64,000 nt of DNA from an uncultured Lachnospiraceae bacterium (GTDB lineage: Bacteria; Bacillota; Clostridia; Lachnospirales; Lachnospiraceae): contig CADBFZ010000001.1 in the NCBI GenBank assembly GCA_902794095.1, positions 1 through 64,000 on the forward strand, written 5' to 3'. Both the position numbers and the translations under genes were made by a program. Every line of letters begins with the position of its first letter. Positions within the stretch are counted from its first letter, which is position 1. Of this stretch, positions 2,206 to 61,073 are shown piece by piece. The notes under the pieces were generated by a model. That model made no database searches. It saw only the letters and a list, made by a program, of their open reading frames with translations, and had not been told where the DNA came from.

Positions 2206-2233
2206 GGAGCTTGTTAATGCAAGCTCCTTTTTA
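2206..2233 (+). terminator. Intrinsic terminator after gltX operon
   Basis: Perfect 8-bp stem GGAGCTTG / CAAGCTCC (2206-2213 and 2220-2227), 6-nt loop, then five T residues. Placed 43 bp after the membrane-protein stop. Confidence 0.9.
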
Positions 2234-2273
2234 TATGTAATTAAGTCCTGACTATTATGAAAGGAGGAAGCGA

Positions 2274-3161
2274 ATGTCTATTTTTTCAAGAAAGACCGAA
2301 GTGCAGGAACCTTTACAGGACCATACGGTGTACCTGATCGATACGGAGAACGTAAGGACTGTTTGGACCCTTCTTCTTGACAGGATGACTCTTAACGATA
2401 AGATTTATGTCTTCTATACGATGAATTCCGGAAACGTATCGTATGAGGACTTAAACGGCGTTATATCGTCCGGTAAGAATGTTGAGCTTATTCAGTGCCA
2501 TACAGGTAAGAACGGCCTTGATTTCCAGCTTGTTTCATATCTCGGATATCTGATCCAAAATAATGAAAATGCGGATTATTGCATAATTTCCGATGACAAC
2601 GGATATGATGCGGTTATCAAATTCTGGGAAGGCAGGGAAGTTAAAGTATCGAGAAAAACTGCTTTTCAGGTATCGGGAAAACAGGCTAAAGCACCCAAGA
2701 AATCATTGTTCGGGGTCAAGCCCAGAACAACTGCCAAAAAGAAGCCTGTAGAAAAAGCACCTAAAGAAGAGGCACCCAAGGCAGAAGCCACTAAACCTGC
2801 AGCTAAGCCTGCTACAAAACCGGCAGCACCCAAACAGGAAGCTAAGACTGAGACAAAACAGGAAACTAAGCCCGAGTCTAAGCAGACAAAAGCAAAGACT
2901 GCATCACCTAAGCCTGCTGCAAAACCTGCTGCATCCAAAAATGCTCCCGCTTCGGTAAATGTATCGGAAGATAAGCTCAGGGAATTTCTTCCCGATGAAT
3001 CCGATGACAATGTTCGTCAGATCTCGGATATCATCAAAAAGAGCGGCGGTAAAAAGGGACTTGCCGACATTCATGACGAGATAGAAAAACTCTATCGTAA
3101 TGAAAAAGCATCAGATATTTACCGCGTAGTCAGACACAATATCAAAGATATCTGTATCTGA
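2274..3161 (+). CDS. PIN/NYN-like domain protein with Lys/Ala/Pro-rich linker
   Basis: 295 residues in three parts. Residues 17-125 look like a PIN/NYN (LabA-like) nuclease fold: YLIDTEN (D23, E25), a lysine-glycine-leucine-D83-F-Q-L segment and SDDNGYD (D107, D108, D112) supply the acidic cluster expected for a metal-dependent RNase. Residues about 132-228 are a low-complexity Lys/Ala/Pro/Glu/Thr linker with repeated AAKPA-type units. Residues 229-295 form a small helical C-terminal domain of unknown type. A strong AAAGGAGG site precedes the ATG. It stands alone between two terminators. RNase activity is inference from the fold; the basic linker would suit nucleic-acid binding. Confidence 0.75.
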   Translation: MSIFSRKTEVQEPLQDHTVYLIDTENVRTVWTLLLDRMTLNDKIYVFYTMNSGNVSYEDLNGVISSGKNVELIQCHTGKNGLDFQLVSYLGYLIQNNENADYCIISDDNGYDAVIKFWEGREVKVSRKTAFQVSGKQAKAPKKSLFGVKPRTTAKKKPVEKAPKEEAPKAEATKPAAKPATKPAAPKQEAKTETKQETKPESKQTKAKTASPKPAAKPAASKNAPASVNVSEDKLREFLPDESDDNVRQISDIIKKSGGKKGLADIHDEIEKLYRNEKASDIYRVVRHNIKDICI

Positions 3162-3171
3162 TCACATTAGA

Positions 3172-3210
3172 ATAAAAAGGCTCTTGCCACTTATGTGGCA
3201 GGAGCTTTTT
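3172..3210. terminator. Bidirectional terminator between convergent genes
   Basis: Stem GCTCTTGCCAC / GTGGCAGGAGC with one G-T pair, 4-nt loop (3191-3194), a run of A before and T after. It can serve the PIN-like gene on the plus strand and the DUF3021 operon on the minus strand. Confidence 0.9.
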
Positions 3211-3214
3211 ATGT

Positions 3215-3601
3215 TTAAAAGTCATTTCTTATCAGGTCGTTAATTTCTTTTACTTTGGTTTTGATACTGAGCATATCCAGTAATTCGCACACGATCAAAA
3301 CGAAGAAAGTAAATGCTATCAGTACAGGTATCGATAAACTGTTATACCAGGAAAAGAGATTACCGAATATAAGAACAAGTATTACAGCGTATACGAATTT
3401 AATGCCTGTTTCCACCAGCGTTAAACTGATTTCAATCCTGCTTATAAGCTTGATTCCGGCATATATGAGAATGTTTACTCCAAGTGCCTGAAATACGGTT
3501 TCAAGACATAAGAAAGTTGCTTTGTATAAGAGTGCAATGGTTGAAAGCGCCACAAGGGTTATTCCGGTCATGGCAAATATATTGATTATTGTCTTTTTCA
3601 T
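3215..3601 (-). CDS. DUF3021 family membrane protein
   Basis: 128 residues with four predicted transmembrane helices (about 7-26, 32-50, 64-81, 89-108) and a short charged C-terminal tail. Size, topology and position directly after a LytTR regulator fit DUF3021, a family usually encoded beside a LytTR transcription factor. In better studied relatives the membrane partner restrains the LytTR protein; that role is inferred here. Its start overlaps the LytTR stop by 4 bp, so the pair is translationally coupled. It is the last gene of a three-gene minus-strand operon. Confidence 0.8.
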   Translation of the reverse strand: MKKTIINIFAMTGITLVALSTIALLYKATFLCLETVFQALGVNILIYAGIKLISRIEISLTLVETGIKFVYAVILVLIFGNLFSWYNSLSIPVLIAFTFFVLIVCELLDMLSIKTKVKEINDLIRNDF

Positions 3602-4047
3602 AATGAGTTCCTCCGAAGCAGTACGTCTCTGATATCATTCAAATAATTTCTGTTAACACAGATTCTTTCATCATTTATCAGTATCGCTTCGAGTTTCGAA
3701 TTGGGAAGATTTTTGATCCCCTTTAGCTTATCGACATTAATGATTACCGATCTGCTTACTCTTACGAATCCCGCACCGGATAACATTTTTTCAAGTTCGA
3801 GTAATCGGTGGGAAGTTTGATATACATCGGTTCCTGTGTAGATAAAGCCTTTCTTGTCCACGCTTTCCATATAATAGATCTCATTTATGGGAACGGAGTA
3901 TTCTTCGTTCTCTTTTTTACATGAGATGACCTTATCAACGGATCTTACATAATTAGAAACTCTTTTTACGTTAGCCGACAGTTCTTTGTACTCAATCGTA
4001 ACTTCAGGTTCCTGCTTGTTCGGGTTTTCTTTCATTATCAAGCGCAT
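3598..4047 (-). CDS. LytTR-family transcriptional regulator
   Basis: 149 residues with a LytTR DNA-binding domain at about 50-147. It contains the typical I-YYMES, a central RVSRSVIINVDKL segment and a V-NRNYL ending that marks the recognition region. There is no receiver domain, so it is a stand-alone LytTR protein of the kind paired with a DUF3021 membrane partner, which follows it. The ATG at 4047 has an AAGGCG site 8 nt upstream; an internal ATG at 4035 has none. It overlaps the end of the CPBP protease gene by 44 bp. Likely binds the 9-12-9 direct repeats at 4950-4979 and so controls its own operon. Confidence 0.88.
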   Translation of the reverse strand: MRLIMKENPNKQEPEVTIEYKELSANVKRVSNYVRSVDKVISCKKENEEYSVPINEIYYMESVDKKGFIYTGTDVYQTSHRLLELEKMLSGAGFVRVSRSVIINVDKLKGIKNLPNSKLEAILINDERICVNRNYLNDIRDVLLRRNSL

Positions 4048-4879
4048 TGTTTTTTCGCCTTATGAGGTAGCAGATAAGTACGATGGCGAATGAAACTGTC
4101 TGCGCAATTGTTACTCTGACAGTCATTAACTCGTCCGCACCTGTATCTGTTACTACGTGGAGTAGGTTTACTATTGTATTGTTGAAGAAATGATCGCCCA
4201 TGGAAAAATAAAGATTTCCGGACATCTTTGTCAACATAGTAAACTTTAAACCAACAAGTGCACTGGCGACAAGCATAAATATTGCACTGAATATCATTCC
4301 GTTAAAGCTTTGTTCACCGTCAATGTAGTTCCTTATGGGCCCAATCACATGCCAGAAACCGAACAAACATGATGAAATGACGGCAGCTTTGGTAAATGAA
4401 TGCTTTGATTCAAGAACTTTTATGAACAGTCCTCTGAAATTACCCTCTTCCATGATGACATTGATTATATTTCCGATAATGCAGATTACGAAGAAGATAA
4501 GTTCTGTTCTGTTTCCTACATTTTTATCGATTGCATATGCGCTGACATAGAGCTGCAGTGATCTGAAACTGCCTCCCGATACTGCAATCATGACCTCTAC
4601 TGTATAAGCAAGTAAAAATACACCTGCTCCGAATGCAAGTCCTTTAAGGATGCTGTAGAAATGTTTGCCGGTTCTAAATCCGATTTCTTTTAATGAAAAT
4701 CCGAATATCTTACATGAGATCACCAGGATCACGATTCCGAGTGTTTTGTGAATTACGGCTTCACCGATTATTGTCTGATCGGTTCTCAGAAAGAGAAATT
4801 CTGTGATATGAAGTGCCAGACAGATCAGATAAATGATCAGTACTGTAAGAAATGGATTTTTAATCTCTTTTTTGTTCAT
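4004..4879 (-). CDS. CPBP-family intramembrane metalloprotease
   Basis: 291 residues, about eight transmembrane helices. The CPBP (CAAX-protease and bacteriocin-processing) motifs are present: EEGNFR (E144, E145, R149), FGFWH (F173-H177), and a later HFFNN in the last third. These residues bind metal and form the active site in this family. Members in Firmicutes often act in bacteriocin immunity or prenyl-protein processing, but no substrate is visible here. A clear AGAGGT site precedes the ATG. First gene of the operon with the LytTR and DUF3021 genes, suggesting a regulated membrane proteolysis response. Confidence 0.85.
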   Translation of the reverse strand: MNKKEIKNPFLTVLIIYLICLALHITEFLFLRTDQTIIGEAVIHKTLGIVILVISCKIFGFSLKEIGFRTGKHFYSILKGLAFGAGVFLLAYTVEVMIAVSGGSFRSLQLYVSAYAIDKNVGNRTELIFFVICIIGNIINVIMEEGNFRGLFIKVLESKHSFTKAAVISSCLFGFWHVIGPIRNYIDGEQSFNGMIFSAIFMLVASALVGLKFTMLTKMSGNLYFSMGDHFFNNTIVNLLHVVTDTGADELMTVRVTIAQTVSFAIVLICYLIRRKNNALDNERKPEQAGT

Positions 4880-29773: not shown

Positions 29774-29799
29774 TTATAAGATTATGGAGTACCTTGCGC

Positions 29800-31647
29800 A
29801 TGAATAAGATCGGGACCAATTATATATTCCCACTCATCACACAGGAGACCGAAGACGGAATCAGATTTTGCCTTGAAAATAAGGCCTCTGATTGCGGAAT
29901 TATCCTATATGACAGAGCGTCCGGTCGCGAACTTAAGAAAATCCCTTTTGAAGAGGGTGATCGTATCGGTAATCTGTATTGTAAAACAGTACAGGGATTT
30001 AATGCATCCGATATTTCATATCTTTATTACGCAGGCTCCAAACATATTACAGATTCAAGGGCTACTGGTCTGTTATCCGGTAGAGAATACGGAAGCGTAG
30101 TTAAAGAGCCTTTAAAAGCTGTTATAAATGATTCGGAGTATGACTGGGAATCCGATAAACATCCCCGACTTAAGTTCGAAGACAGTTTCTTTTATCTGCT
30201 CCATGTAAGGGGATTTACCAAATCCCCCACTTCGGGAGTTAAGCATAAGGGAACTTTTGCGGGAATTGCCGAAAAGCTGGATCACATAAGTTCACTTGGT
30301 GTTACAACCATAGAACTTCAGCCCGCATACGAGTTTATAGAAACCGAATGCAAACCCGGAATCGAACCTTCATACGGCTACGGTTCATCTAAGCCTTTAC
30401 AGGTGATTCCCGGCAAGCTTAATTACTGGGGATACAAGCCCGGATATTATTACGCACCCAAGGAAAGCTATTCATCGTCCGAGGATGTATCAAGGGAATT
30501 TAAAAACCTTGTCAAAGAACTTCATAAACGCGGAATGGAGCTTTGCATGCAGTTTTATTTTGCTCCTGATTTTCCGGAGTCCGAAGTTCTTGAGGTTTTA
30601 AGATATTGGGTTATCAATTACCACGTTGACGGATTCCACTTGATGGGAATGAACATCCCCATGAGACTTGTTTCATCAGATTCACTCCTTGCGGGAACCA
30701 AGCTTTTGAACGACCATCTGGACAATGTGGATTTCGAAGCACTCAGAGAATCCGGTTACGGAAGATTCATCGGATTATACACCGATGATTTCAGATATCC
30801 GCTCAGAAGACTTCTTAAGAGTGATGAAGGTCAGGTATCGGATACGCTTTCATTCTTAAGATCCAATCCCGAAGATTTCGGACGAATCAATTTCTTCTCG
30901 GATTATCAGGGATTTACTCTTATGGATACGGTTAGTTATGACCGTAAGCATAATGAGGAAAACGGAGAAGACGGAAGAGACGGAAGTGATTATAACTTCA
31001 GCTGGAACTGCGGTGAGGAAGGACCTACCCGTAAGAAGAAGATAAGAGATCTTCGTTTCAGACAGATAAAGAATGCATACAGTTTATTGATGCTCGGTGC
31101 CGGTACTCCTTTGATATTCATGGGAGACGAATTCGGAAATTCCCAGAGCGGAAACAACAATCCCTACTGCATCGATTCGCAGGTCACCTGGCTTGACTGG
31201 AAGGATGCCAAGAAGAATTCCGAGCTCACCGATTATCTTAAAGAGATGGTAAAGCTTCGCAGCGACCATAAGCTCCTTAAGAGCAGTCGCGAGCTGTACA
31301 TGATAGATACGGAAAATTGCGGATATCCCGAGATGAGTTATCATTCCGACACCGCATACAGAGTATCCTGCGAGTATTACTCCAGATCCTTTGGAATCAT
31401 GTATTGCGAGGACAAGGGAGAATCCCTGATGTATGCCGCTGTAAATATGGGATGGGAGAATACGTGTCTTGCGCTTCCCAGACCGCCCAAAGGATTTGAC
31501 TGGAGCATTAAATATTCAACAGATCCCGAAGCCTTTGGCAAAGCACTCACACAGCAACTTGAAAAGACTATTCCCGGCAGGACCGTAACAATATTCGAAA
31601 CGGTCAAAACTCCTTCGGGAAAGAAAACCGGGAAGAAAGTTAAATGA
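29800..31647 (+). CDS. GlgX-like GH13 protein lacking catalytic residues
   Basis: 615 residues from ATG 29800 (GGAG 10 nt upstream; TTG at 29794 is possible). An N-terminal beta domain (about 1-110) precedes a barrel related to glycogen debranching enzymes; the stretch GDEFGNSQSGNNNPYC is near-identical in type to GlgX/isoamylase. The three GH13 carboxylates are missing: DGFRFD reads DGFHLM (position 282), the acid-bearing IAE strand reads IGLYTD, and AHDGFTL reads DYQGFTL. It should therefore not hydrolyse glucan. It may bind glycogen or regulate a partner. It overlaps the DUF5662 gene by 4 bp and heads a long run of genes. Confidence 0.82.
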   Translation: MNKIGTNYIFPLITQETEDGIRFCLENKASDCGIILYDRASGRELKKIPFEEGDRIGNLYCKTVQGFNASDISYLYYAGSKHITDSRATGLLSGREYGSVVKEPLKAVINDSEYDWESDKHPRLKFEDSFFYLLHVRGFTKSPTSGVKHKGTFAGIAEKLDHISSLGVTTIELQPAYEFIETECKPGIEPSYGYGSSKPLQVIPGKLNYWGYKPGYYYAPKESYSSSEDVSREFKNLVKELHKRGMELCMQFYFAPDFPESEVLEVLRYWVINYHVDGFHLMGMNIPMRLVSSDSLLAGTKLLNDHLDNVDFEALRESGYGRFIGLYTDDFRYPLRRLLKSDEGQVSDTLSFLRSNPEDFGRINFFSDYQGFTLMDTVSYDRKHNEENGEDGRDGSDYNFSWNCGEEGPTRKKKIRDLRFRQIKNAYSLLMLGAGTPLIFMGDEFGNSQSGNNNPYCIDSQVTWLDWKDAKKNSELTDYLKEMVKLRSDHKLLKSSRELYMIDTENCGYPEMSYHSDTAYRVSCEYYSRSFGIMYCEDKGESLMYAAVNMGWENTCLALPRPPKGFDWSIKYSTDPEAFGKALTQQLEKTIPGRTVTIFETVKTPSGKKTGKKVK

Positions 31648-44492: not shown

Positions 44493-45575
44493 ATGTCCAG
44501 AGTTTACAATTTTTCGGCAGGACCTGCTGTACTGCCCGAAGAAGTACTGAAGGAAGCTGCAGAGGAGATGCTTGATTATAAGGGATCAGGCCAGTCAGTA
44601 ATGGAGATGAGCCACAGATCCAAGGTGTATGACACCATTATCAAGGAAGCTGAAGCCGATCTTCGCGAACTCATGAATATTCCTGACAACTACAAGGTAC
44701 TGTTCCTTCAGGGCGGTGCTTCCCAGTTCTTCGCAGAAGTTCCCATGAACATGATGAAGAATAAGAAAGCCGGATACATCATCACCGGTCAGTGGGCTAA
44801 GAAGGCATTTCAGGAAGCTAAGATCTATGGTGAGGCTGTTGAACTTGCTTCATCCGCTGATAAGACCTTCAGCTATATCCCTGATTGCTCCGATCTTCCT
44901 ATCACCGATGATATGGACTATGTCTACATCTGTGAGAACAATACCATCTACGGAACCAAGTATAAGACTCTTCCCAACACCAAGGGCAAGATTCTTGTTT
45001 CCGATGTTTCCTCCTGTTTCCTTTCAGAGCCCGTTGATGTAACCAAGTACGGCGTAATCTACGGCGGCGTTCAGAAGAATGTCGGACCTGCAGGCTGCGT
45101 AATCGCAATCATCAGAGAAGACCTCATCACCGACGAGTGCCTTCCCGGAACTCCCACCATGCTTAAGTGGAAGACTCAGGCTGACAACGATTCACTCTAC
45201 AACACTCCTCCCTGCTACACTATCTACATCTGTGGCAAGGTATTCAAGTGGCTTAAGAAGATGGGCGGACTTGAGGAGATGAAGAAGAGAAACGAAGAGA
45301 AGGCTAAGATTCTCTATGATTTCCTTGATTCTTCAAAGCTTTTCAAGGGCACTGTCGTAAAAGAAGACAGATCCCTTATGAACGTTCCTTTCGTAACCGG
45401 CAACGAAGAGCTTGATGCTAAGTTCGTTAAAGAAGCTACCGAGGCTGGATTTGTTAACCTTAAGGGTCACAGAACCGTTGGCGGTATGAGAGCATCCATC
45501 TACAATGCTATGCCTAAGGAAGGCGTTGAGAAGCTTGTTGAGTTCATGAAGAAGTTCGAGGCAGAGAACGCGTAA
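44493..45575 (+). CDS. serC: Phosphoserine aminotransferase
   Basis: 360 residues. PLP enzyme converting 3-phosphohydroxypyruvate to phosphoserine with glutamate. The start VYNFSAGPAVLPEEVL and MEMSHRSK are SerC signatures, and the PLP lysine lies in YGGVQKNVGPAG. AGGAGGAG precedes the ATG. Its codon use is highly biased (CTT, AAG, GTT), suggesting strong expression. serA follows 26 bp later, so the two serine-synthesis steps are co-transcribed. It may also serve vitamin B6 synthesis, as in other bacteria. Confidence 0.97.
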   Translation: MSRVYNFSAGPAVLPEEVLKEAAEEMLDYKGSGQSVMEMSHRSKVYDTIIKEAEADLRELMNIPDNYKVLFLQGGASQFFAEVPMNMMKNKKAGYIITGQWAKKAFQEAKIYGEAVELASSADKTFSYIPDCSDLPITDDMDYVYICENNTIYGTKYKTLPNTKGKILVSDVSSCFLSEPVDVTKYGVIYGGVQKNVGPAGCVIAIIREDLITDECLPGTPTMLKWKTQADNDSLYNTPPCYTIYICGKVFKWLKKMGGLEEMKKRNEEKAKILYDFLDSSKLFKGTVVKEDRSLMNVPFVTGNEELDAKFVKEATEAGFVNLKGHRTVGGMRASIYNAMPKEGVEKLVEFMKKFEAENA

Positions 45576-45601
45576 GTCGCCTCTTTGAAAGGAGTTTTCA
45601 G

Positions 45602-46768
45602 ATGTTTAAGATCAATTGCCTTAATCCCATTTCTCAGGTAGGCCTTGCAGGTCTTACCGATGATTTCCAGATAACCGACAAGACCGAAGAGGCTGAAGGT
45701 ATCCTTGTAAGAAGTGCTGCAATGCACGACATGGATCTTCCCGATTCACTCCTTGCAGTAGCAAGAGCAGGAGCCGGTGTTAACAATATCCCTCTTGATA
45801 AATGTGCTGAGAAAGGTATCGTTGTATTCAATACCCCCGGTGCAAATGCAAACGGTGTTAAAGAGCTTGTTATCGCAGGTATGCTTCTTGCAGCAAGAGA
45901 TGTCGTAGGCGGTATCGAGTGGTGTAAAGAGAATGCATCCGATGCAGATATTGCAAAGACTGCTGAGAAGCAGAAGAAAAACTATGCAGGAACCGAGATT
46001 GCAGGCAAGAAGCTTGGTGTTATCGGACTCGGAGCTATCGGTGTTAAGGTAGCTAACGCAGCTCACAATCTCGGAATGGAAGTTTACGGATACGATCCTT
46101 ACCTTTCCGTAAATGCTGCATGGAATCTTTCCAGAAGCGTACATCACGTAGAGAAGGTAGAGGATATCTACAAAGAGTGTGATTACATCACCATCCATGT
46201 ACCTCTTCTTGATTCAACCAAGGGAACCATCAATCGTGAAGCTATCTCCATGATGAAGGACGGTGTTGTAGTTCTTAACTATGCTCGTGACCTTCTTGTA
46301 TCAGAGACCGATATGCTTGAGGCTCTCAAGAACGGTAAGGTAGCAAGATACGTAACCGATTTCCCTAATCCTACCACCGCAGGACAGCCCGGAGTTATCC
46401 TTACTCCTCACCTTGGAGCAAGCACCGAAGAGTCCGAAGACAACTGCGCTAAGATGGCAGTTGAGGAGATCATGGATTACCTCAACAACGGAAACATCAG
46501 AAATTCCGTTAACTATCCCGCACTTGATATGGGCGTATGCGACAAGGCAGGAAGAATTGAAGTATTCCACAAGAATCAGGCTAACATGATCACTCAGTTC
46601 ACCGCAGTTATCGGTGCAGAGAAGATCAACATCTCCGACATGATGAACAAGTCCAGAGGAGATTATGCAGTAACCATGCTTGATCTTGATGATGCTCCCA
46701 CTGCTCAGCTCGTTGAGAAGCTTTCAGCTGCTGAAGGCGTTCTTCGCGTAAGAGTAGTAAAGGGATGA
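45602..46768 (+). CDS. serA: D-3-phosphoglycerate dehydrogenase
   Basis: 388 residues. Oxidises 3-phosphoglycerate with NAD, the first step to serine. The nucleotide-binding site is GVIGLGAIGVKVAN, the catalytic His-Glu pair lies around LTPHLGASTEESEDN, and residues about 315-388 form a C-terminal ACT-type domain (NMITQFTAVIGAEKINI) for serine feedback. It is the short form without the extra intervening domain of the long enzymes. GAAAGGAG precedes the ATG. A perfect terminator follows, closing the serC-serA operon. Confidence 0.96.
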   Translation: MFKINCLNPISQVGLAGLTDDFQITDKTEEAEGILVRSAAMHDMDLPDSLLAVARAGAGVNNIPLDKCAEKGIVVFNTPGANANGVKELVIAGMLLAARDVVGGIEWCKENASDADIAKTAEKQKKNYAGTEIAGKKLGVIGLGAIGVKVANAAHNLGMEVYGYDPYLSVNAAWNLSRSVHHVEKVEDIYKECDYITIHVPLLDSTKGTINREAISMMKDGVVVLNYARDLLVSETDMLEALKNGKVARYVTDFPNPTTAGQPGVILTPHLGASTEESEDNCAKMAVEEIMDYLNNGNIRNSVNYPALDMGVCDKAGRIEVFHKNQANMITQFTAVIGAEKINISDMMNKSRGDYAVTMLDLDDAPTAQLVEKLSAAEGVLRVRVVKG

Positions 46769-46780
46769 TTTGAGCAATAT

Positions 46781-46814
46781 AAAACGGGTGTACATGATGT
46801 ACACCCGTTTTTTA
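46781..46814 (+). terminator. Intrinsic terminator after serA
   Basis: 15-bp perfect palindrome AAAACGGGTGTACAT / ATGTACACCCGTTTT with one base between, followed by more T. The flanking A run lets it also end the minus-strand gene at 46856. Confidence 0.95.
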
Positions 46815-46855
46815 GTATAAAGAAAGAGCAGACAAATATGACTGCTCTCGGTAAT

Positions 46856-47119
46856 TCACTTTTTATCTGTATCATCGAGATCTTTGAGTGAATCCTGAAG
46901 CTTTTGCTCCATCTCGGTAGCAGCTTCACTTGCAAGATCCATGTACTCGATAAAGATATCGCTGAGGGATTTATCCTGCTCTTCACCGATTTCTTTCATG
47001 ATCGGAGTAAGCTTCTCGAGCTGATATGAAATGGGTGTATGCTGGGGATCGATATCCGGCATTACAGCCTCTGCATAATCGTTTATTCTTTTGAGCATTG
47101 CTCTTTGTTCGTCTGTCAT
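46856..47119 (-). CDS. Small acidic helical protein of unknown function
   Basis: 87 residues from ATG 47119, which has AGAGG upstream and begins MTDEQRAML; the open frame runs 19 codons further back without a ribosome site. It is predicted to be nearly all helix, acidic, without membrane segments, cysteines or known motifs. It is transcribed away from the DUF1015 gene from a TGn-extended TATAAT promoter at 47163 and ends at the shared serA terminator. Small size and good codon fit argue for a real gene, but nothing shows its role. Confidence 0.7.
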   Translation of the reverse strand: MTDEQRAMLKRINDYAEAVMPDIDPQHTPISYQLEKLTPIMKEIGEEQDKSLSDIFIEYMDLASEAATEMEQKLQDSLKDLDDTDKK

Positions 47120-47162
47120 AATAACCTCTTCATCTACGCATATTTGCGTTCCCACCGAGTGC

Positions 47163-47171
47163 ATTATAGCA
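47163..47171 (-). promoter_or_regulatory. Extended -10 promoter of small acidic protein gene
   Basis: Minus-strand TGCTATAAT, a TGn-extended -10, 43 bp before the ATG at 47119. A small hairpin ACGCA-aata-TGCGT lies in the leader. Confidence 0.55.
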
Positions 47172-47181
47172 CACATGAAAC

Positions 47182-47210
47182 TTGTTTGTATAAGCTGATA
47201 ATGCTAAAAT
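47182..47210 (+). promoter_or_regulatory. Promoter of DUF1015 gene
   Basis: TTGTTT (47182-47187), 17-bp spacer, TAAAAT (47205-47210), 57 bp before the ATG. Confidence 0.5.
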
Positions 47211-47267
47211 AATTTTAAAATTTTGCGGATATTCTTATAACGCATATTATAAAATTGGAGTAAAAAA

Positions 47268-48506
47268 ATGGCAGATGTAAGACCTTTTAACGCATACAGA
47301 CCCCGCAAGGGAATGGAGTCTGTGATTGCGGCACTTCCCTATGATGTTTATAACAGAGCTGAGAGCGTGGAGGTTGTCAAAGGCAATCCCGAATCGTTTC
47401 TTGCCATTGACAGAGCAGAGACTCAGTTCTCCGATGATGTCGATACATACGATCCCAGAGTTTATGACAAAGCAAGAGATATGATCCGTGAGAGGATCGA
47501 AGACGGAAGATTTGTTCAGGATGAAGGCGAACCCGGATATTATCTCTACGAGCTTACAATGGACGGACGTGTTCAGAACGGAATCGTTGCATGTGCTTCA
47601 ATCGATGACTACATGAACGGTGTTATCAAGAAGCATGAAAACACCCGTGCAGATAAAGAAGTTGACCGTATTAATCACGTTGATAAAACAGGGTTTCAGA
47701 CCGGTCCTATTTTCCTCGCATACAGACATAATGATGTTCTTGCATCCGTTATCGAGTCCGTTAAAAAGAATACGGCAGACTGCGACTTCACTTCCGATGA
47801 CGGAATCAGACACAGAGTCTTCTCAATAAATGATCCCGATAAAGTAAAAACAATCAGAGACGAGTTCTCCGGAACTGATGCACTTTATATTGCAGACGGC
47901 CATCACAGATGCGCGTCCGCTGTTAAAGTCGGACTTAAGAGAAGAGAGGAAAATCCCGGGTACACGGGAGATGAAGAGTTTAACTATTTCCTCAGTGTAA
48001 TTTTCCCTGGAGACGAACTTAAGATTCTTGATTACAACAGAGTTGTCAAAGATCTTAACGGTCTTACAGAGGTGCAGTTCTTCAATGAAGTCATCGACAG
48101 ATTTGAAGTATGTGATGCAAAGAAGCATTATTCACCGGAAGACAAAGGTCTCTTCGGTATGTATATAAGCGGTAAGTGGTATAAGCTCAGAGCTCACCAC
48201 GATATTAAATCCGATGATCCCGTAAAGGGACTTGATGTATCCGTTCTTCAGGACGGACTTCTCGGACCTGTTCTCGGAATCGGAGATCCCAGAACCGATA
48301 AGAGAATCGACTTTGTCGGCGGTATCAGAGGATTGGGCGAACTTGAGAAGAGATGCAGCGAAGATATGCAGGTTGCTTTCTCAATGTTCCCTACTTCGAT
48401 TGAAGAGCTCTTCAAAGTAGCCGATGAAGGACTTCTTATGCCTCCAAAGTCCACTTGGTTCGAGCCCAAGCTTCGCAGCGGATTATTCTTACATAAGATC
48501 GATTAA
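47268..48506 (+). CDS. DUF1015 family protein
   Basis: 412 residues, soluble. VRPFNAYRP at the start, AALPYDV, KHENT and ADGHHRCASA near residue 210 are the family signature. DUF1015 genes are regularly found beside serC and serA in clostridia, as here, and the family has been linked with serine metabolism (some members act as ATP-dependent serine kinases); that activity is not shown by this sequence alone. ATTGGAG precedes the ATG. The degenerate GlgB-like gene follows after 26 bp, probably in the same transcript. Confidence 0.88.
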   Translation: MADVRPFNAYRPRKGMESVIAALPYDVYNRAESVEVVKGNPESFLAIDRAETQFSDDVDTYDPRVYDKARDMIRERIEDGRFVQDEGEPGYYLYELTMDGRVQNGIVACASIDDYMNGVIKKHENTRADKEVDRINHVDKTGFQTGPIFLAYRHNDVLASVIESVKKNTADCDFTSDDGIRHRVFSINDPDKVKTIRDEFSGTDALYIADGHHRCASAVKVGLKRREENPGYTGDEEFNYFLSVIFPGDELKILDYNRVVKDLNGLTEVQFFNEVIDRFEVCDAKKHYSPEDKGLFGMYISGKWYKLRAHHDIKSDDPVKGLDVSVLQDGLLGPVLGIGDPRTDKRIDFVGGIRGLGELEKRCSEDMQVAFSMFPTSIEELFKVADEGLLMPPKSTWFEPKLRSGLFLHKID

Positions 48507-48532: not shown

Positions 48533-50740
48533 ATGAATAAGAGACTTTATAAGCTTATGGATTGGGCCTTTATCGAAGAGGTTATCTATTCCGAGTGCTC
48601 ACATCCTCAGGATCTTCTCGGACCTCATGTCAAAGGTCAGACCATGTTGCTCCAGGCATATTTTCCCGGAGCTCAGTCCGTAGTTGTAAAGTGGAAAGAC
48701 AGGGGAGAACCCGGTAAGCCTTCAGAGACTGAAATGGAAGTTGCGGATGATGACGGATTTTTCGCACAGCTCCTTCCCACCCAAGATCCCGGTGTCTATT
48801 CATACGTTGTAACTTATGAGGAAAGACAGGCAGGCGGAAAGACACTCAAGAAAAAAGTCTTAAGATGTGGGGACCCCTACAGACATATTAATGTTTTAAA
48901 TGATAAGGACATTGCAAAATTCATAGAAGGCAAGTGTCTTAATGCTGCAGATATTCTCGGTTCTCATTATATGGAGCATGACGGTGAGGAAGGTACTCTT
49001 TTTGCAGTATATGCACCTAATGCAATGAGGATCAGCGTAGTCGGTGATTTCAATTCCTGGGACGGAAGACTTGCTCAGATGTGTAAGAGAGAGGATTCCG
49101 GAGTCTTTGAATTATTCATTCCCGGAGTTAAGCCCGGCGATAAGTATCAATACGAGATCAAGTTCAAGAATTACGATATCTGCAGAAAAGCAGATCCTTA
49201 CGCATCAGAGCTTCTTACCGAAAACAGCGGAGTATCCGTTGTTGCAGAAGCAGGTTCTGTTAAATGTAAGACCATCCTGACTAAGAAGAATGTAGATAAA
49301 AACTCTGCTCTTTGTATCTGGCAGGTTAATCCTTTCGATTATGTAAATGAAGAGTCATCGGCATTTGCAAAGATGGCAGCAGAGATTCCCGCAGCTTGTG
49401 AAGCATCAGGTTATACTCATGTATGCATCGGAAATGTTCTTACTTCATCATTCGGTGTTATCGATAAAACAGTATCTTACTATGCAATCGATAAAAGACT
49501 CGGTTCTTCCGATGAGTTAAAGATATTTGTAAATAAGCTCCATGACGCAGGTGTAGGCGTGGTCTTTGACTGGATCCCGTCTTATTTTGCCCATGATGAG
49601 GGAGGACTTGCTCTCTTTGACGGAACCGGACTCTATGAGCATATCGATCCCAGACAGGGTTATGCTGCGGATATCGATGCGTGCCTGTTTAACTATTCTT
49701 CGAAGACCGTCAGCAATTTCTTAATGTCATCCGCTTTCAGATATGCTGATGAATTTGCTGCTGACGGAATCAGAGTATGCGGCATCGCAAGAATGCTTTA
49801 TCTTGATTACAGCAAGACGGAATGGGTTCCCAATATCTATGGCGGAAATGAGAACCTTGATGCGATTTCTTTTATCAGAGATTTAAATACTCAGATCAAA
49901 TCCAAATATCCCGGAATGCTTCTGATTGCCGAGGATTCCTCACTTCATCAGGGAATCACCGACAGCGTGAGTGATAACGGTCTCGGATTTGACTATAAGT
50001 GGAACGAAGTATTCTTCGATGATTTCAGAAACTTTATCTGCATGGATCCTTTGTTCAGAGGCAGAAATCTTCACCTCCTTCCCGATGAACTTACCTATGC
50101 ATTCGTAGAGGATTTCATTCTTCCCTTTGCAGGAAAAGAAAAAACTGCGGAGATTGGAAGGCTCTATGACCTTCTTCCCGGTGATGAGGGGATGAAGAAG
50201 GCTCAGATGAAACTTGCTGCAGGATATCTATTTGCACATCCGGGTAAGAAAGTTATCGGGGCTGCGGATGAGATCACGGGCAAGCTTCTCAAGGATCTTA
50301 ACGAACTGTATGCTAAGGAACCTGCTCTTAACCGTAACGAGAACGATCCTGAGAACTTCGAGTGGCTCAGCAACATGAACGAGGATCAGGCCTGTGTTTC
50401 TTTTGTGAGAAAAACGGACGATCCCGAAGATATGCTTGTTTTCATAGCAAACTTCTCAGGAATCGAGCAGTCATTCCAGACCGGTGTTCCTTACGAAGGT
50501 AAATACAAAGAGATCTTCACCACCGATGATAAGGCTTACGGCGGAACTTCATCCGTATCAAAGACCGTAAGAAAAGCAACCGATAAGAGATTGGACGGAA
50601 GAACACAGTCCATCGCGGTTAAGATCAGACCTTTGAGCATGATTATCATGAAGTTTATTCCTTATACCGAAGCTGAACTTGAGAAGGTTATCGAGCAGAG
50701 GATCAGGAATTATACTCCCATCAAGAAAACCAAGAAATGA
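48533..50740 (+). CDS. GlgB-like GH13 protein lacking the catalytic nucleophile
   Basis: 735 residues with the layout of a glycogen branching enzyme: two N-terminal CBM48-type domains (about 35-118 and 150-240), a GH13 barrel (about 255-620) and a C-terminal beta domain. The scaffold is well kept (DPRQGYAAD, MLYLDYSK, NIYGGNENLDAI). Catalytic residues are not: the nucleophile in DGxRVD is C416, and the stabilising HD of LSHDE reads GK (534-535). The acid/base E467 in LLIAEDSS remains. It probably cannot branch glycogen but may bind it. The usual glgC/glgA partners are absent. Follows DUF1015. Confidence 0.83.
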   Translation: MNKRLYKLMDWAFIEEVIYSECSHPQDLLGPHVKGQTMLLQAYFPGAQSVVVKWKDRGEPGKPSETEMEVADDDGFFAQLLPTQDPGVYSYVVTYEERQAGGKTLKKKVLRCGDPYRHINVLNDKDIAKFIEGKCLNAADILGSHYMEHDGEEGTLFAVYAPNAMRISVVGDFNSWDGRLAQMCKREDSGVFELFIPGVKPGDKYQYEIKFKNYDICRKADPYASELLTENSGVSVVAEAGSVKCKTILTKKNVDKNSALCIWQVNPFDYVNEESSAFAKMAAEIPAACEASGYTHVCIGNVLTSSFGVIDKTVSYYAIDKRLGSSDELKIFVNKLHDAGVGVVFDWIPSYFAHDEGGLALFDGTGLYEHIDPRQGYAADIDACLFNYSSKTVSNFLMSSAFRYADEFAADGIRVCGIARMLYLDYSKTEWVPNIYGGNENLDAISFIRDLNTQIKSKYPGMLLIAEDSSLHQGITDSVSDNGLGFDYKWNEVFFDDFRNFICMDPLFRGRNLHLLPDELTYAFVEDFILPFAGKEKTAEIGRLYDLLPGDEGMKKAQMKLAAGYLFAHPGKKVIGAADEITGKLLKDLNELYAKEPALNRNENDPENFEWLSNMNEDQACVSFVRKTDDPEDMLVFIANFSGIEQSFQTGVPYEGKYKEIFTTDDKAYGGTSSVSKTVRKATDKRLDGRTQSIAVKIRPLSMIIMKFIPYTEAELEKVIEQRIRNYTPIKKTKK

Positions 50741-50948: not shown

Positions 50949-51021
50949 ATCCGGATATGAGCCTTGTGGCAAATATGTAAAAATATAACGTTTTCCTAAG
51001 GGTTTAAGGCAAATTTTTGTG

Positions 51022-51050
51022 TTGACAATGAGTGTCAAATTGCCGAAAAT
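51022..51050 (+). promoter_or_regulatory. argH promoter with palindrome on the -35 box
   Basis: TTGACA (51022-51027), 17 bp, GAAAAT (51045-51050). TTGACA-atgag-TGTCAA (51022-51038) is a perfect inverted repeat that would place a dimeric regulator over the -35. It does not resemble the usual ArgR box. Confidence 0.5.
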
Positions 51051-51084
51051 AAATAGGATTATATTAAAAGGGGCAGGTGGCTTT

Positions 51085-52500
51085 ATGGCACAATTATGGG
51101 GCGGAAGATTTACCAAGCCTACCGATGAAAAAGTATACGCTTTTAATGCATCTGTTAATTTCGATAAGAGGATGCTTAAGCAGGATGTCTGCGGAAGTAT
51201 TGCACACTCTGCAATGCTTGCAAAGCAGGGAATTATATCCGAAGCTGATGGCAAAGCTATCGCCGAGGGACTTAAAGGCATTTATGCCGATGTAACCTCC
51301 GGAAAGCTTGAGATCACCGATCAGTATGAAGATATTCATTCTTTTTGCGAAGCAGTTCTGACAGAAAGAGTCGGAGACGCCGGTAAGAGACTTCACACCG
51401 GAAGAAGCCGTAACGACCAGGTTGCTCTTGATATGAGGATGTATGTAAGAGGTGAGGTTTGCATCGCAGATGCGCTTCTTGATAAGCTCCTTGTCACTAT
51501 CCTCGATATCATGAAGGCAAACACCAAGACCTTTATGCCCGGTTTCACACATCTCCAGAAGGCACAGCCCGTAACACTGGCTCACCACATGGGCGCATAC
51601 TTCGAGATGTTTAAGAGAGACAGAAAGAGACTTCATGACATCTATACCAGAATGAATGAATGTCCTCTGGGTTCCGGAGCACTTGCGGGAACCACTTATC
51701 CTCTCGACAGAGAATTTACAGCCGGGCAGCTCGGATTTGACAGAGCTACCGATAATTCCATGGATTCCGTATCCGACAGAGATTATCTTATTGAATTCCT
51801 GGATGCACTTTGCATCATCATGATGCATATGTCCAGATCCTGTGAAGAGATAATCACATGGAATACCAATGAATACAGATTCGTCGAGATAGATGATGCA
51901 TATTCAACCGGATCCAGCATCATGCCTCAGAAGAAGAATCCTGATATTGCGGAACTTATCAGAGGAAAGACCGGAAGAGTATACGGAAGCCTGATGGGAC
52001 TTCTCACCACCATGAAGGGTCTTCCCCTTGCATATAACAAGGATATGCAGGAAGACAAAGAAGGTGCTTTCGATGCAATGGATACCGCTTGTTCATGCCT
52101 TGATCTTTACGAAGGAATGCTTCGCAGCATGAAGTTCAACAACGAGATCATGGAAAAGAGCGCAGCCGGCGGATTCACTAACGCTACAGATGCCGCTGAT
52201 TATCTCGTAGGAAAGGGAATGCCTTTCAGAGATGCTCATTCCGTAGTCGGAAGAATGGTTCTTGAATGTATCGATAAGGGAATCACCATTGATGAGATGA
52301 GCCTTGACGATCTTAAGAAGCTTTCGGATATCATCGAAGAAGATTTCTATGAAGCCGTCAGCATTGAGACATGTGTTCTTAAGCGTTCCACAAAGGGAGC
52401 TCCCGGACCCGATGCCATGGCTGAAGAGATTAAGAGCTGTGAGAAATTCATATCGGATACCAAAGCTTTGGTCGATCCCCTTGATGATTTTTTGAAATGA
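51085..52500 (+). CDS. argH: Argininosuccinate lyase
   Basis: 471 residues from ATG 51085 (MAQLWGGRF, the standard N-terminus of ArgH); the frame runs back to 51019 but that part has no start with a good site. Cleaves argininosuccinate to arginine and fumarate, the last step in arginine synthesis. It has HTGRSRNDQVA, GFTHLQ and the flexible catalytic loop GSSIMPQKKNPD with the active serine. AGGTGG lies 4 nt upstream. argG is not adjacent; asd follows after 39 bp. Confidence 0.97.
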   Translation: MAQLWGGRFTKPTDEKVYAFNASVNFDKRMLKQDVCGSIAHSAMLAKQGIISEADGKAIAEGLKGIYADVTSGKLEITDQYEDIHSFCEAVLTERVGDAGKRLHTGRSRNDQVALDMRMYVRGEVCIADALLDKLLVTILDIMKANTKTFMPGFTHLQKAQPVTLAHHMGAYFEMFKRDRKRLHDIYTRMNECPLGSGALAGTTYPLDREFTAGQLGFDRATDNSMDSVSDRDYLIEFLDALCIIMMHMSRSCEEIITWNTNEYRFVEIDDAYSTGSSIMPQKKNPDIAELIRGKTGRVYGSLMGLLTTMKGLPLAYNKDMQEDKEGAFDAMDTACSCLDLYEGMLRSMKFNNEIMEKSAAGGFTNATDAADYLVGKGMPFRDAHSVVGRMVLECIDKGITIDEMSLDDLKKLSDIIEEDFYEAVSIETCVLKRSTKGAPGPDAMAEEIKSCEKFISDTKALVDPLDDFLK

Positions 52501-52539
52501 TATTTTCCGGTTAATAAAGCCGGTGTAGGAGGAGATATT

Positions 52540-53625
52540 ATGAGTGATAAGTTAAAAGTAGGTATTCTGGGCGGAACCGGAATGGTTGGACAGAGATTCA
52601 TCTCTCTTCTTGAGAACCATCCTTGGTTTGAGGTTGTTACCATCGCTGCATCACCCCGCAGTGCAGGTAAGACTTATGAAGAAGCAATCGGTGACAGATG
52701 GAAGATGACCACTCCCATGCCCGAAGCCGTTAAGAAGATAGTCGTAAAGGATGTATCAAATGTTGAAGACGTAATCGCTGATGTTGATTTCGTATTCAGC
52801 GCAGTTGATATGACCAAGGACGAGATCAAAGCTATCGAGGAGAAGTATGCTAAGGCAGAAATCCCCGTTGTTTCCAATAACAGCGCACATCGTTGGACTC
52901 CCGACGTTCCCATGATTGTTCCCGAGATCAACGCAGCACACGCTGATGTGATCGAGTTCCAGAAGAAGAGACTCGGAACCAAGAGAGGATTTATCGCAGT
53001 TAAGCCTAACTGCTCAATCCAGTCCTATGCTCCTGTTCTTACCGCATGGAAAGAGTTCGAGCCTACCCAGGTTGTAGTATCCACCTATCAGGCAATCTCC
53101 GGTGCAGGAAAGACCTTCAAGGATTGGCCCGAGATGGTTGAGAACGTAATTCCTTACATCGGTGGTGAGGAAGAGAAGAGTGAGAAGGAGCCCCTCAGAC
53201 TTTGGGGTAAGATTGAGAACGGCGTTATCGTTCCCGAGACCGCTCCTCTTATCACTTCACAGTGCATCAGAGTTCCCGTTCTTAACGGACATACCGCTTC
53301 CGTATTTGTAAACCTTGGCAAGAAAGCTACCAAGGAACAGCTCATCGAGAAGATGGTTACTTTCTCAGGCGAGCCTCAGAAGCTTGGTCTTCCCAGCGCT
53401 CCCAAGCAGTTCATCCAGTACCTTGAGGATGACAACAGACCTCAGGTTAAGCTTGATGTAGATTTCGAAAACGGAATGGGCATCAGCATCGGAAGACTTC
53501 GTGAGGATACCCTTTTCGATTGGAAGTTCGTAGGACTTTCACATAATACCGTAAGAGGTGCCGCAGGAGGTGCTGTTCTTTGTGCAGAGCTCCTCAAGGC
53601 TAAGGGATATATCGATAAGAAATAA
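52540..53625 (+). CDS. asd: Aspartate-semialdehyde dehydrogenase, archaeal/fungal type
   Basis: 361 residues. Reduces aspartyl phosphate to aspartate semialdehyde for lysine, threonine, methionine and diaminopimelate synthesis. NADP site GILGGTGMVGQRF at the N-terminus, active cysteine in VKPNCSIQS, and STYQAISGAGK and GHTASVFV as expected. Length and motifs fit the branch of the family named for archaea and fungi, which is also common in clostridia, rather than the E. coli type. TAGGAGGAG precedes the ATG. It is probably co-transcribed with argH. Confidence 0.95.
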   Translation: MSDKLKVGILGGTGMVGQRFISLLENHPWFEVVTIAASPRSAGKTYEEAIGDRWKMTTPMPEAVKKIVVKDVSNVEDVIADVDFVFSAVDMTKDEIKAIEEKYAKAEIPVVSNNSAHRWTPDVPMIVPEINAAHADVIEFQKKRLGTKRGFIAVKPNCSIQSYAPVLTAWKEFEPTQVVVSTYQAISGAGKTFKDWPEMVENVIPYIGGEEEKSEKEPLRLWGKIENGVIVPETAPLITSQCIRVPVLNGHTASVFVNLGKKATKEQLIEKMVTFSGEPQKLGLPSAPKQFIQYLEDDNRPQVKLDVDFENGMGISIGRLREDTLFDWKFVGLSHNTVRGAAGGAVLCAELLKAKGYIDKK

Positions 53626-58262: not shown

Positions 58263-59231
58263 ATGAAAAAGAAGATCGTAAGCCTAATGCTGACCGCAGT
58301 TCTTGCAATGAGCCTTGCAGGATGCGGAGAGGCAGCATCCGACGGAACCTACAAAGTCGGTGTATGCCAGATTGTAGAGCATCCCGCACTTGATGCAGCA
58401 ACTCAGGGATTTGAAGATGCTCTCAAAGAGAAGCTCGGAGAAGACAAAGTTACTTTTGATGTTCAGAACGCTCAGGGTGAGCAGCCTGCAGCAGCAACCA
58501 TCTGCAACGGATTCGTATCTGCAAACGTTGATCTTATCCTTGCAAATGCAACCACACCTCTTCAGTGTGCAGCAGCAGCTACCAGTACCATTCCCGTTCT
58601 CGGAACTTCAATCACCGATTACGCAACCGCTCTTGAGGTTCCCGTAGAAGAGTGGACCGGAACTACCGGAAGAAACATTTCAGGAACCAGCGACCTTGCT
58701 CCCATTGATGAGCAGGAGAACATGATCCTTGAGCTCTTCCCCAATGTTCAGACTGTAGGTCTTATGTACTGCAGCGCAGAAGCTAACTCCAAGTATCAGA
58801 TCCAGCTTATCGAGGCTGAGCTTGATGCTGACGGAATTGCTTACAAAGAGTACTCAGTTGCAGACTCTAACGATATCGTTTCTGTATTCTCAACTGCAGT
58901 AACCGAGTGTGATGTTCTTTACATCCCCACCGACAACACTCTTGCTAACTCAACCGAGACCATCAGAAACATCGTTGTTCCTGCAGGTATCCCTGTTGTT
59001 GCGGGTGAAGAAGGAATTTGCGCTGTTTGCGGTGTAGCAACTCTTTCCATCAGCTACTATGATCTCGGATATGCTACCGGACTTATGGCAGCAGAGATTC
59101 TTCTTGAGGGCAAGGACATCTCCACCATGGAGATCCAGTATGCTCCTTCTGTTACCAAGGAATACAATGCAGAGCTCTGTGAGCAGCTCGGTGTCGGCGT
59201 TCCTTCCGATTATGTTGCCATCGGCGAATAA
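58263..59231 (+). CDS. TrpX-like ABC transporter substrate-binding lipoprotein
   Basis: 322 residues. Lipobox SLAGC (C21). The mature part has two Rossmann-like lobes starting KVGVCQIVEHPALDAATQGF, the signature of the ABC_sub_bind family (COG2984) whose members include the tryptophan-binding protein TrpX. Later motifs are ATTPLQCAAAATSTIP and PTDNTLANS. GGAGG precedes the ATG. Permease and ATPase genes follow, making a complete importer. The substrate may be tryptophan or another aromatic compound; the sequence does not settle it. Very biased codon use suggests high expression. Confidence 0.9.
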   Translation: MKKKIVSLMLTAVLAMSLAGCGEAASDGTYKVGVCQIVEHPALDAATQGFEDALKEKLGEDKVTFDVQNAQGEQPAAATICNGFVSANVDLILANATTPLQCAAAATSTIPVLGTSITDYATALEVPVEEWTGTTGRNISGTSDLAPIDEQENMILELFPNVQTVGLMYCSAEANSKYQIQLIEAELDADGIAYKEYSVADSNDIVSVFSTAVTECDVLYIPTDNTLANSTETIRNIVVPAGIPVVAGEEGICAVCGVATLSISYYDLGYATGLMAAEILLEGKDISTMEIQYAPSVTKEYNAELCEQLGVGVPSDYVAIGE

Positions 59232-59266
59232 TTTGTAGACCGATTCGGCAAAAATGTGTTAGTATG

Positions 59267-59293
59267 TAGGCTGTGTTTTTTAAGCACAGCCTA
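59267..59293 (+). other. Hairpin between binding-protein and permease genes
   Basis: 9-bp perfect stem TAGGCTGTG / CACAGCCTA with a 9-nt loop, followed by an AT-rich but not T-only tract. It may shield the upstream mRNA or end part of the transcripts, favouring the binding protein over the membrane parts. Confidence 0.65.
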
Positions 59294-59323
59294 TTATTAA
59301 ATTAGGTTACGGAGTAAATATTT

Positions 59324-60277
59324 ATGGTTCAGTATTTTTCATCTCTAGATCCTATAACACTATTAAAGTCATTTCCCGGATCCATAGCCCAGGGGATGGT
59401 ATGGTGCGTTCTGGCTCTCGGTGTATATATCACATTCAGGATCCTTGATTTTGCGGATCTTACCGTTGACGGTTCCATTGCATTCGGCGGAGCTGTTTGC
59501 GTTATGCTTATCAGAGCCGGCATTTCCCCCATTGTAGCGACAATCGTTTCGTTTTTTGCCGGAATGGTTGCAGGTATTATAACAGGACTTCTTACGACAC
59601 TTCTCGGAATACCGGGAATATTGGCTTCGATTCTTACGCAGATTTCACTTTATTCGATCAACCTGCATATTATGGGACAGTCCAATATGCCCGTATCCGT
59701 TGATAAGTATCCCTTACTTGTATCTCTCAGATATGTTACGGACTCCACTCAGTCGGCTGTTCTCTTTTTCGTAGGAATGATCATATTCATATTCCTTCTT
59801 ATAGGAGTACTTTATAACTTCTTCGGAACAGAAGTCGGTGCATCCATCAGAGCTACAGGATGCAATCCCAATATGGCAAGAGCTCAGGGAATAAATACCA
59901 ATTACATTAAGGTACTTACTCTCGGAATTGCCAACGGACTTGTAGGTCTTTCGGGGGCACTTTGCGGACAGTTTTCCGGAGCTGCCGATGTTAATATGGG
60001 ACGTGGTGCCATTGTTATCGGTCTTGCGGCGGTTATTATCGGAGAAGTTATCTTCGGTAAGTTTGCATCCAAGAGAAAAGCTGCTTTTGCATGGACCATG
60101 GGCGCTGTTGTATGTGGCTCCATTATCTATTACATGGTTTATCAGTTTGTACTTTGGCTCAAGTTCCCTTCAGACGATATGAAGATACTTACCGCAGCGG
60201 TTGTTGCTGCGTTCCTTGCAATTCCTTATCTTAAGGAGAAGAGTTCCGTTAAGAAAGGAGCAGCTAAACATGAATAA
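59324..60277 (+). CDS. ABC transporter permease (COG4120, TrpY-like)
   Basis: 317 residues with about nine transmembrane helices. It shows GVYITFRILDFADLTVDGS and GLLTTLLGIPGILASILT, characteristic of the permease that works with COG2984 binding proteins, and a cytoplasmic coupling stretch (SIRATGCNPNMARAQGIN). It forms the membrane channel of the importer, probably as a homodimer. ACGGAG lies before the ATG. Its end overlaps the ATPase start by 8 bp. Confidence 0.92.
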   Translation: MVQYFSSLDPITLLKSFPGSIAQGMVWCVLALGVYITFRILDFADLTVDGSIAFGGAVCVMLIRAGISPIVATIVSFFAGMVAGIITGLLTTLLGIPGILASILTQISLYSINLHIMGQSNMPVSVDKYPLLVSLRYVTDSTQSAVLFFVGMIIFIFLLIGVLYNFFGTEVGASIRATGCNPNMARAQGINTNYIKVLTLGIANGLVGLSGALCGQFSGAADVNMGRGAIVIGLAAVIIGEVIFGKFASKRKAAFAWTMGAVVCGSIIYYMVYQFVLWLKFPSDDMKILTAAVVAAFLAIPYLKEKSSVKKGAAKHE

Positions 60278-61073
60278 GGCACTTGAACTTAGAGATATTC
60301 ATAAGGTATTCAATAAGGGAACCGTTAATGAAAAAGTTGCTCTTAACGGCCTTTCGCTTGAACTTGAACCCGGCGATTTCGTGACCATCATCGGTGGTAA
60401 CGGTGCCGGTAAATCCACAATGCTTAATGCCGTTGCAGGTGTATGGCCCGTTGATTCAGGCCAGATCATTGTTAACGGTGAAGATATCACAATGCTTCCT
60501 GAGCATAAGAGAGCTACATATCTGGGCAGAGTATTCCAGGATCCCATGACCGGAACCGCTGCTACCATGGATATCGAAGAGAATATGGCTCTTGCGTACA
60601 GAAGAGGAAGGAAGCGTACTCTTAAGCGCGGTCTTACCAATGAAGAGCGTGATTTGTTCAGAGAAAAGCTTGCGACTCTTGATCTCGGACTTGAAGACAG
60701 AATGACTACAAAGGTTGGTTTATTGTCGGGCGGTCAGAGACAGGCGGTAACACTTCTCATGGCTTCACTTAAAAAGCCTGAACTGCTTCTTCTTGATGAG
60801 CATACCGCAGCACTGGATCCCAAGACGGCAGCAAAGGTTCTTGAGATCTCCGATCAAATAATAAACGAATATCATCTTACGGCTATGATGGTTACACATA
60901 ATATGAAAGATGCCATTGTTCACGGAAATCGTCTTATAATGATGAATGAAGGCCGTATAATATATGATGTTCGTGGCGAGGAGAAGAAGAATCTGCACGT
61001 TAAGGATCTTCTTGCTAAGTTCGAAGAAATCAGCGGCTCTGAATTTGCCAATGACAGAATGATGCTCTCGTAA
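60270..61073 (+). CDS. ABC transporter ATP-binding protein (COG1101, TrpZ-like)
   Basis: 267 residues from ATG 60270, with AAAGGAG 11 nt upstream inside the permease gene; the frame extends back but the encoded N-terminus (MNKALELRDIHKVF) is standard. Walker A GGNGAGKST, signature LLSGGQRQA, Walker B LLLLDEHTAAL and switch His in MVTHNM are all present. It powers the importer of the two upstream genes. The overlap with the permease couples their translation. Confidence 0.94.
   Translation: MNKALELRDIHKVFNKGTVNEKVALNGLSLELEPGDFVTIIGGNGAGKSTMLNAVAGVWPVDSGQIIVNGEDITMLPEHKRATYLGRVFQDPMTGTAATMDIEENMALAYRRGRKRTLKRGLTNEERDLFREKLATLDLGLEDRMTTKVGLLSGGQRQAVTLLMASLKKPELLLLDEHTAALDPKTAAKVLEISDQIINEYHLTAMMVTHNMKDAIVHGNRLIMMNEGRIIYDVRGEEKKNLHVKDLLAKFEEISGSEFANDRMMLS

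Follow-up and report, generated by a model that had tools for sequence, protein, structure and literature searches.

The gene at 48533-50740 of the window, by which we mean the whole 64,000-nucleotide stretch analysed here, encodes a GlgB-like protein with broken catalytic motifs and lies in a genome that carries an intact GlgB elsewhere. We asked whether this protein is a true GlgB ortholog that has lost catalysis, where and how often such losses took place, and what might keep the gene in the population.

Catalytic motifs and origin of the GlgB-like gene

The features of the window that bear on these questions are as follows.

29794..31647 (+): GlgX-like pseudoenzyme, TTG at 29794, ATG at 29800 (profile matches, alignment)
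44493..48506 (+): upstream syntenic anchors serC, a serA-like gene and a DUF1015 gene (profile matches, locus comparison)
48533..50740 (+): GlgB-like pseudoenzyme, 735 aa, ATG start (ORF list, profile matches, alignment)
48563..48829 (+): GlgB_N domain, aa 11-99 (PF22019, 74.3 bits)
48956..49204 (+): CBM48, aa 142-224 (PF02922, 84.7 bits)
49583..49585 (+): Y351 replacing the region I His (GlgB alignment)
49778..49780 (+): C416 replacing the Asp nucleophile (GlgB alignment)
49928..49948 (+): region III AEDSSLH, aa 466-472, acid E467 retained (GlgB alignment)
50132..50137 (+): G534-K535 replacing the region IV His-Asp (GlgB alignment)
50363..50653 (+): Alpha-amylase C-terminal domain, aa 611-707 (PF02806)
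51019..53625 (+): downstream syntenic anchors argH and asd (profile matches, locus comparison)

For the motif comparison, 59 GlgB rows were aligned, the window protein among them. Region I reads VVFDWIPSYF in the window protein vs VILDWVPAHF in intact rows (His to Y351), region II DGIRVCGI vs DGIRVDAV (nucleophile Asp to C416), region III AEDSS vs AEEST, with E467 kept, and region IV FAGKEK vs LSHDEV (His to G534, stabilizing Asp to K535). The preliminary description of this DNA had reported DGIRVC with C416 at the nucleophile and FAGKE in place of LSHDE, and had noted that E467 and CBM48 remain; letters and positions were read correctly, E467 aligns in region III and two CBM_48 stretches exceed the Pfam cut-off. 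GlgB_N and Alpha-amylase_C also pass their Pfam cut-offs, whereas the catalytic-domain model stays under its own (13.3 bits vs 22). None of the NCBIfam GlgB models listed matches the protein at its curated cut-off: TIGR01515 is missed narrowly (459.7 vs 463.95 bits), and the score for PRK05402 is 497.5 vs 741. PHROGs gave no match. Its closest sequence relatives are GlgB proteins, and its AlphaFold2 model (32 rows; pLDDT 84.8, pTM 0.86) matches 3k1d in Foldseek (TM 0.82, 30% identity); by prediction, the fold is that of GlgB. Within CBM48, W176 and K210 are invariant across 17 congeneric rows, a domain with the conserved core looked for in the sequence of a putative CBM48 glycogen binder. On its motifs, the window protein is a GlgB ortholog that is catalytically dead.

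The same pattern extends through the genus, surveyed in 31 genomes including the one studied here. The dead GlgB was matched in 30 (in G024 by a fragment), with no match in G016, a genome ~80% complete. The Asp-Glu-Asp triad is broken in all 29 congeneric rows read, both motif His are absent and the acid Glu is kept in every one; with the break repeated in 29 rows, the catalytic losses cannot be put down to sequencing error. Identical losses occur in the congeneric isolate genomes P6A3 and AC2028. At the nucleophile column the 29 rows carry S (8), C (7), I (4), Y (3), E (3) and V, F, A and D (one each), a lack of conservation that rules out Cys as a substitute nucleophile. The one row with Asp at this site (L039) has lost the stabilizer, and the region IV Asp still aligns in 8 of the 29, seven with Ser and one with Ala at the nucleophile.

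To place the gene, we compared 80 named loci, the best 80 of the 177 relatives found (26 of the genus and 54 others). Among these best 80, all 26 genus loci are dead and 53 of the 54 others retain Asp-Glu-Asp, the exception being L165, with Asn at the nucleophile; one or more of serC, serA, DUF1015 and argH turned up in the sequence fetched for 26/26 genus loci and 51/54 others. DUF1015 was found in 17/26 genus loci vs 51/54 others and argH in 23/26 vs 31/54, short contigs counting as misses. The gene order serC-serA-DUF1015-glgB-argH is common to intact orthologs in other Lachnospiraceae, indicating that catalysis was lost in place, and on the tree the intact ortholog closest to the dead clade is L135. 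Motifs, tree and synteny together show that the long Lachnospiraceae GlgB became, by all sequence signs, a pseudoenzyme without leaving its locus, on the stem branch of the genus; synteny and tree also rule out a separate old paralog in the case of the genus. At the same locus, a 106-aa ORF (46856-47176, -) lies between serA and DUF1015 on the strand opposite to theirs; it has matches at the equivalent place in most fetched orthologous loci and no NCBIfam match.

Apparent recurrent loss across the family and intact glycogen genes

The family sample comprised 150 genomes from 149 genera. Long GlgB sequences were taken from 60 further genera, best matches first, of ~84 genomes listing one, and this sampling is therefore biased to close relatives. 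Judged by the triad, 12 of the 60 are dead (L191, L192, L193, L197, L200, L203, L206, L208, L210, L221, L227 and L249), as is the long GlgB of G034 (L076), so that dead long GlgB was found in 14 of the 63 genera sampled, our own genus and G033 included, or 13 of the 62 other genera. Within L191-L250, where 12 rows are dead, seven of these 12 (L191, L193, L203, L208, L210, L221 and L227) have at least one anchor gene in the fetched stretch and the other five have none there. In a gene tree of 95 rows built with the motif columns omitted, the 26 dead rows require seven changes, five of them forced by starred branches. Six dead rows form very long branches, two of which meet on the tree; once these six are removed, four changes remain on a quick tree (20 dead among 89 rows), and on the same reduced set the hypothesis that all dead rows form one clade is rejected (p-AU 9.6e-40). 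We read this as at least four apparent losses of catalysis, counted on the gene tree. Separately, L165 (L165:10001-12229), an Acetatifactor long GlgB, has Asn at the nucleophile while its remaining motifs are intact, which may represent a very recent loss.

Further glycogen genes lie elsewhere in the genome. The second GlgB of the genome (L071:3508-5502, 665 aa) has all motifs and passes three GlgB cut-offs, and its GlgX (L074, 815 aa) reads VVFNH, DGFRFD, AEAWD and CHDG and lies just over the TIGR02100 cut-off (641.5 vs 640.9). On contig C5 lie two separate gene pairs (2188-4472 and 58588-60904), in each of which glgC precedes a weaker match to glgC that we take to be probably glgD. GlgA was not found in this genome, which is 80% complete; it is over the cut-off in 8/8 relatives searched, and the gap is therefore probably one of assembly. 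The intact short GlgB has a 966-aa frame to either side on its own strand (L071:531-3428 and L071:5516-8413), neither with an NCBIfam match.

A second GlgB with intact motifs is present in all 14 dead lineages, the G064 copy lying in two frames and the G190 copy reaching the contig end. A restriction of catalytic loss to genomes with a second GlgB is weakly suggested by the counts (0/10 vs 14/53, p 0.10), in which the second GlgB was for most genomes taken from the genome match listing rather than from gene-by-gene reading.

Constraint on the retained gene and its proposed function

The window gene is under purifying selection. Against eight congeners, whole-gene dN/dS is 0.070-0.152 (NG86), values that are rough given a whole-gene dS of 1.1-1.8 and one infinite domain estimate. 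By domain, the same comparisons gave 0.029-0.066 for the C-terminal domain, the slowest-evolving part of the gene, and 0.072-0.235 for the barrel; for comparison, the short GlgB gave 0.023-0.105 (four pairs) and four neighbour genes 0-0.115 where the estimate was finite. The dN of the window gene is higher than that of its neighbours, and such faster evolution of the dead copies fits relaxed constraint and a new role equally.

In 14 intact relatives the barrel leads in conservation (mean identity 80.5%, vs 69.8% for CBM48, 55.1% for the C-domain and 54.9% for GlgB_N), whereas in the dead clade of 13 genus rows and L191 it comes last (43.2%, vs 51.5% for CBM48, 59.0% for GlgB_N and 61.3% for the C-domain). 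Measured against the nearest intact ortholog, picked by the flanking domains alone, the barrel/(N+C) identity ratio is 0.64-1.10 in 26 dead rows vs 1.01-1.61 in 66 intact ones, a comparison that may be shifted by the greater distance of dead rows from the intact reference. Half of the dead rows (13/26) come from one genus; the other 13 range from 0.75 to 1.10, four of them at or above 1, and the highest ratio belongs to L192, in which D to N is the only triad change. The lowest-ratio intact row, L198:2856-5285 (G095), has an intact triad, LSIDDI in region IV and an odd region I stretch; it has lost the region IV His, its conservation pattern resembles that of dead copies, and it may be dead as well. 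At the level of sites, intact rows show 98% identity or more at 95 barrel positions; 32 of these are kept in 13/13 genus rows and 30 in at most 3/13. In CBM48, 29 sites are near-invariant among intact rows, and every one of the 13 genus rows retains the same 15 of them.

We regard the window protein as an in-place GlgB pseudoenzyme that is probably, if by no wide measure, kept for an ancestral non-catalytic job of its flanking domains around glycogen. We propose that the ancestral long GlgB would already have had such a job, which is the most likely reason why the gene was kept. Glycogen would be bound via CBM48 and GlgB_N and other glycogen enzymes thereby positioned, a step modelled on plant ISA2; the GlgX-like protein would be a possible, non-obligate partner, and the barrel would stay as a scaffold with its cleft largely dismantled. 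What we infer is thus a selected job without catalysis, residing largely in the flanking domains, with glycogen binding and enzyme positioning as its most economical form. As a counterpoint, the conservation of E467 in 29/29 rows and the low dN/dS of the barrel indicate that the barrel still matters.

The flanking domains could instead serve a non-catalytic role outside glycogen, with the protein acting as a protein-protein scaffold or regulator through its C-terminal and GlgB_N domains. These two are better conserved in the dead clade than CBM48, and in the window the dead glgB is not within a glycogen operon; however, the retention of 15/29 near-invariant CBM48 sites argues against this reading, and the locus was inherited from intact GlgB, so that the neighbours say little on function. 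We consider such a role unlikely.

The second gene to be weighed is that of the GlgX-like protein, 16.9 kb upstream on the same strand. The preliminary description had placed it 17 kb away and counted two GH13 pseudoenzymes in one genome, an assessment with which our results agree: both proteins are dead by motif, and the intact GlgB and GlgX are encoded elsewhere. The window GlgX-like protein is without nucleophile, acid, and region I and IV motifs. The region II nucleophile block and the region I His are missing from all 38 GlgX-like rows read (31 genera); some of these rows, though not the window protein, have a Glu aligned at the acid position. GlgX-like matches were found in 31/31 genus genomes (some by fragments, in G022 over ~100 residues) and, by score, in at least 112 of the 150 family genomes, a count that excludes the weaker matches in 11 more genomes, among them G201, whose protein was read and proved GlgX-like.

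Co-occurrence of the two pseudoenzymes had been put forward as the check on a paired non-catalytic system peculiar to this lineage. Both are indeed in nearly all genus genomes (30/31 and 31/31), but the GlgX-like protein is found family-wide, beside intact long GlgB in 47/49 cases and beside dead GlgB in 13/14, which does not support a lineage-specific pair; these counts score G200 as lacking the GlgX-like protein despite a partial match. Its equal frequency beside dead and intact GlgB marks it as an old pseudoenzyme whose history is separate. Some link between long GlgB and the GlgX-like protein is nevertheless likely. With relatedness ignored, their presence is associated (75/84 vs 37/66, p 4e-6), also when the 11 weaker GlgX-like matches are added (76/84 vs 47/66, p 0.003). 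They lie on one contig in 24/75 genomes, on the same strand in 23 of these 24, and at most 45 kb apart in 18/75, vs 0/53 for short GlgB, which has a contig in common with the GlgX-like gene in two of 53 genomes, none within 1 Mb. In G170 (L247:2071-6429), the GlgX-like stop is followed after 3 bases by the start of an intact long GlgB on one strand, and the two likely form an operon. Lys-rich tails extend past the C-domain in long GlgB orthologs (e.g. L146, L217 and L203); as a mark common to the pair they are unsupported, a net charge of at least 8 in the last 40 residues being found in 28/92 long GlgB rows vs 2/38 GlgX-like rows.

A family-wide extension of the favoured non-catalytic role, in which long GlgB would act together with the GlgX-like protein as a scaffold of the glycogen particle, a bacterial counterpart of ISA1/ISA2, is a tentative idea that we hold to be possible yet rather doubtful; if true, it would account for repeated catalytic loss without gene loss. 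Less likely than either this or a role outside glycogen is that the dead GlgB and the dead GlgX-like protein form one obligate non-catalytic complex of the lineage. Their joint presence across the genus, their linkage on the same strand and the 3-base spacing in G170 would suit such a complex, but the GlgX-like protein is just as frequent beside intact GlgB, its neighbour in G170 is an intact GlgB and G034 has a dead GlgB without it, leaving obligate pairing unsupported.

The retained acid raises the prospect of new chemistry in the old cleft, built on E467 and newly fixed D468, S470 and H472. The acid Glu is conserved in all 29 rows, and in the 13 genus rows compared only three sites are fixed for a residue that departs from the consensus of intact rows: E to D468, T to S470 and W to H472. 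Against this stand the erosion of the rest of the cleft, with 30/95 near-invariant barrel sites kept in at most 3/13 genus rows, the poor modelling of region IV (pLDDT <50 at residues 535-540) and the absence of the three changes from other dead lineages, and we judge new chemistry improbable. A decaying pseudogene, to which the lost motifs and the evolution faster than that of neighbour genes might point, is ruled out for all practical purposes by open frames (no internal stop codon in any long genus match), by dN/dS values far under 1 wherever a domain gave a finite estimate, a mark of purifying selection, and by the identical losses in P6A3 and AC2028.

Comparison with known systems

GH13 pseudoenzymes are known. 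In the open-licence literature, at the level of titles and abstract openings, we found no dead GlgB in Lachnospiraceae and no account of free-standing, repeatedly arisen bacterial GlgB pseudoenzymes. With bacterial GlgB of the N1-N2 type, which we take to be GH13_9, the window protein has in common its domain order, fold, acid Glu and synteny with intact orthologs, but it is without nucleophile, stabilizing Asp and motif His, and its cleft is eroded. The Lachnospiraceae GlgX-like protein, encoded in the same genome, likewise belongs to GH13 and has no nucleophile, but it is old, family-wide and GlgX-derived, whereas the dead GlgB has another parent enzyme. Lachnospiraceae genes annotated glgB or glgX can thus not all be counted as enzymes. 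The several apparent catalytic losses with flanking domains kept amount to a natural experiment that may separate the catalytic from the non-catalytic job of GlgB.

Chlamydial GlgA-GlgB fusions offer a bacterial likeness: the passages cited here from PMC11046441 describe an inactive GlgB domain in genomes that have a further GlgB. That case, however, is a fusion in a defective pathway, whereas the window gene is free-standing and under selection. A second parallel is plant ISA2. According to the cited part of PMC12510319, its catalytic sites vary, ISA1 binds to it and it influences the glucan without catalysis; its retention is there said to be not understood. ISA2 and the window protein are both GH13 paralogs that have lost catalytic residues and are selected beside an active pathway enzyme, and the clade-wide loss of catalytic residues, open frame and purifying selection of the window gene are what the sequence of a putative ISA2-like protein would be expected to display. 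ISA2, as described in that source, descends from a debranching enzyme and binds ISA1, whereas the window protein descends from a branching enzyme, with recurrent losses and a partner that is only putative. With these differences, the dead GlgB may be viewed as a bacterial parallel to plant ISA2.
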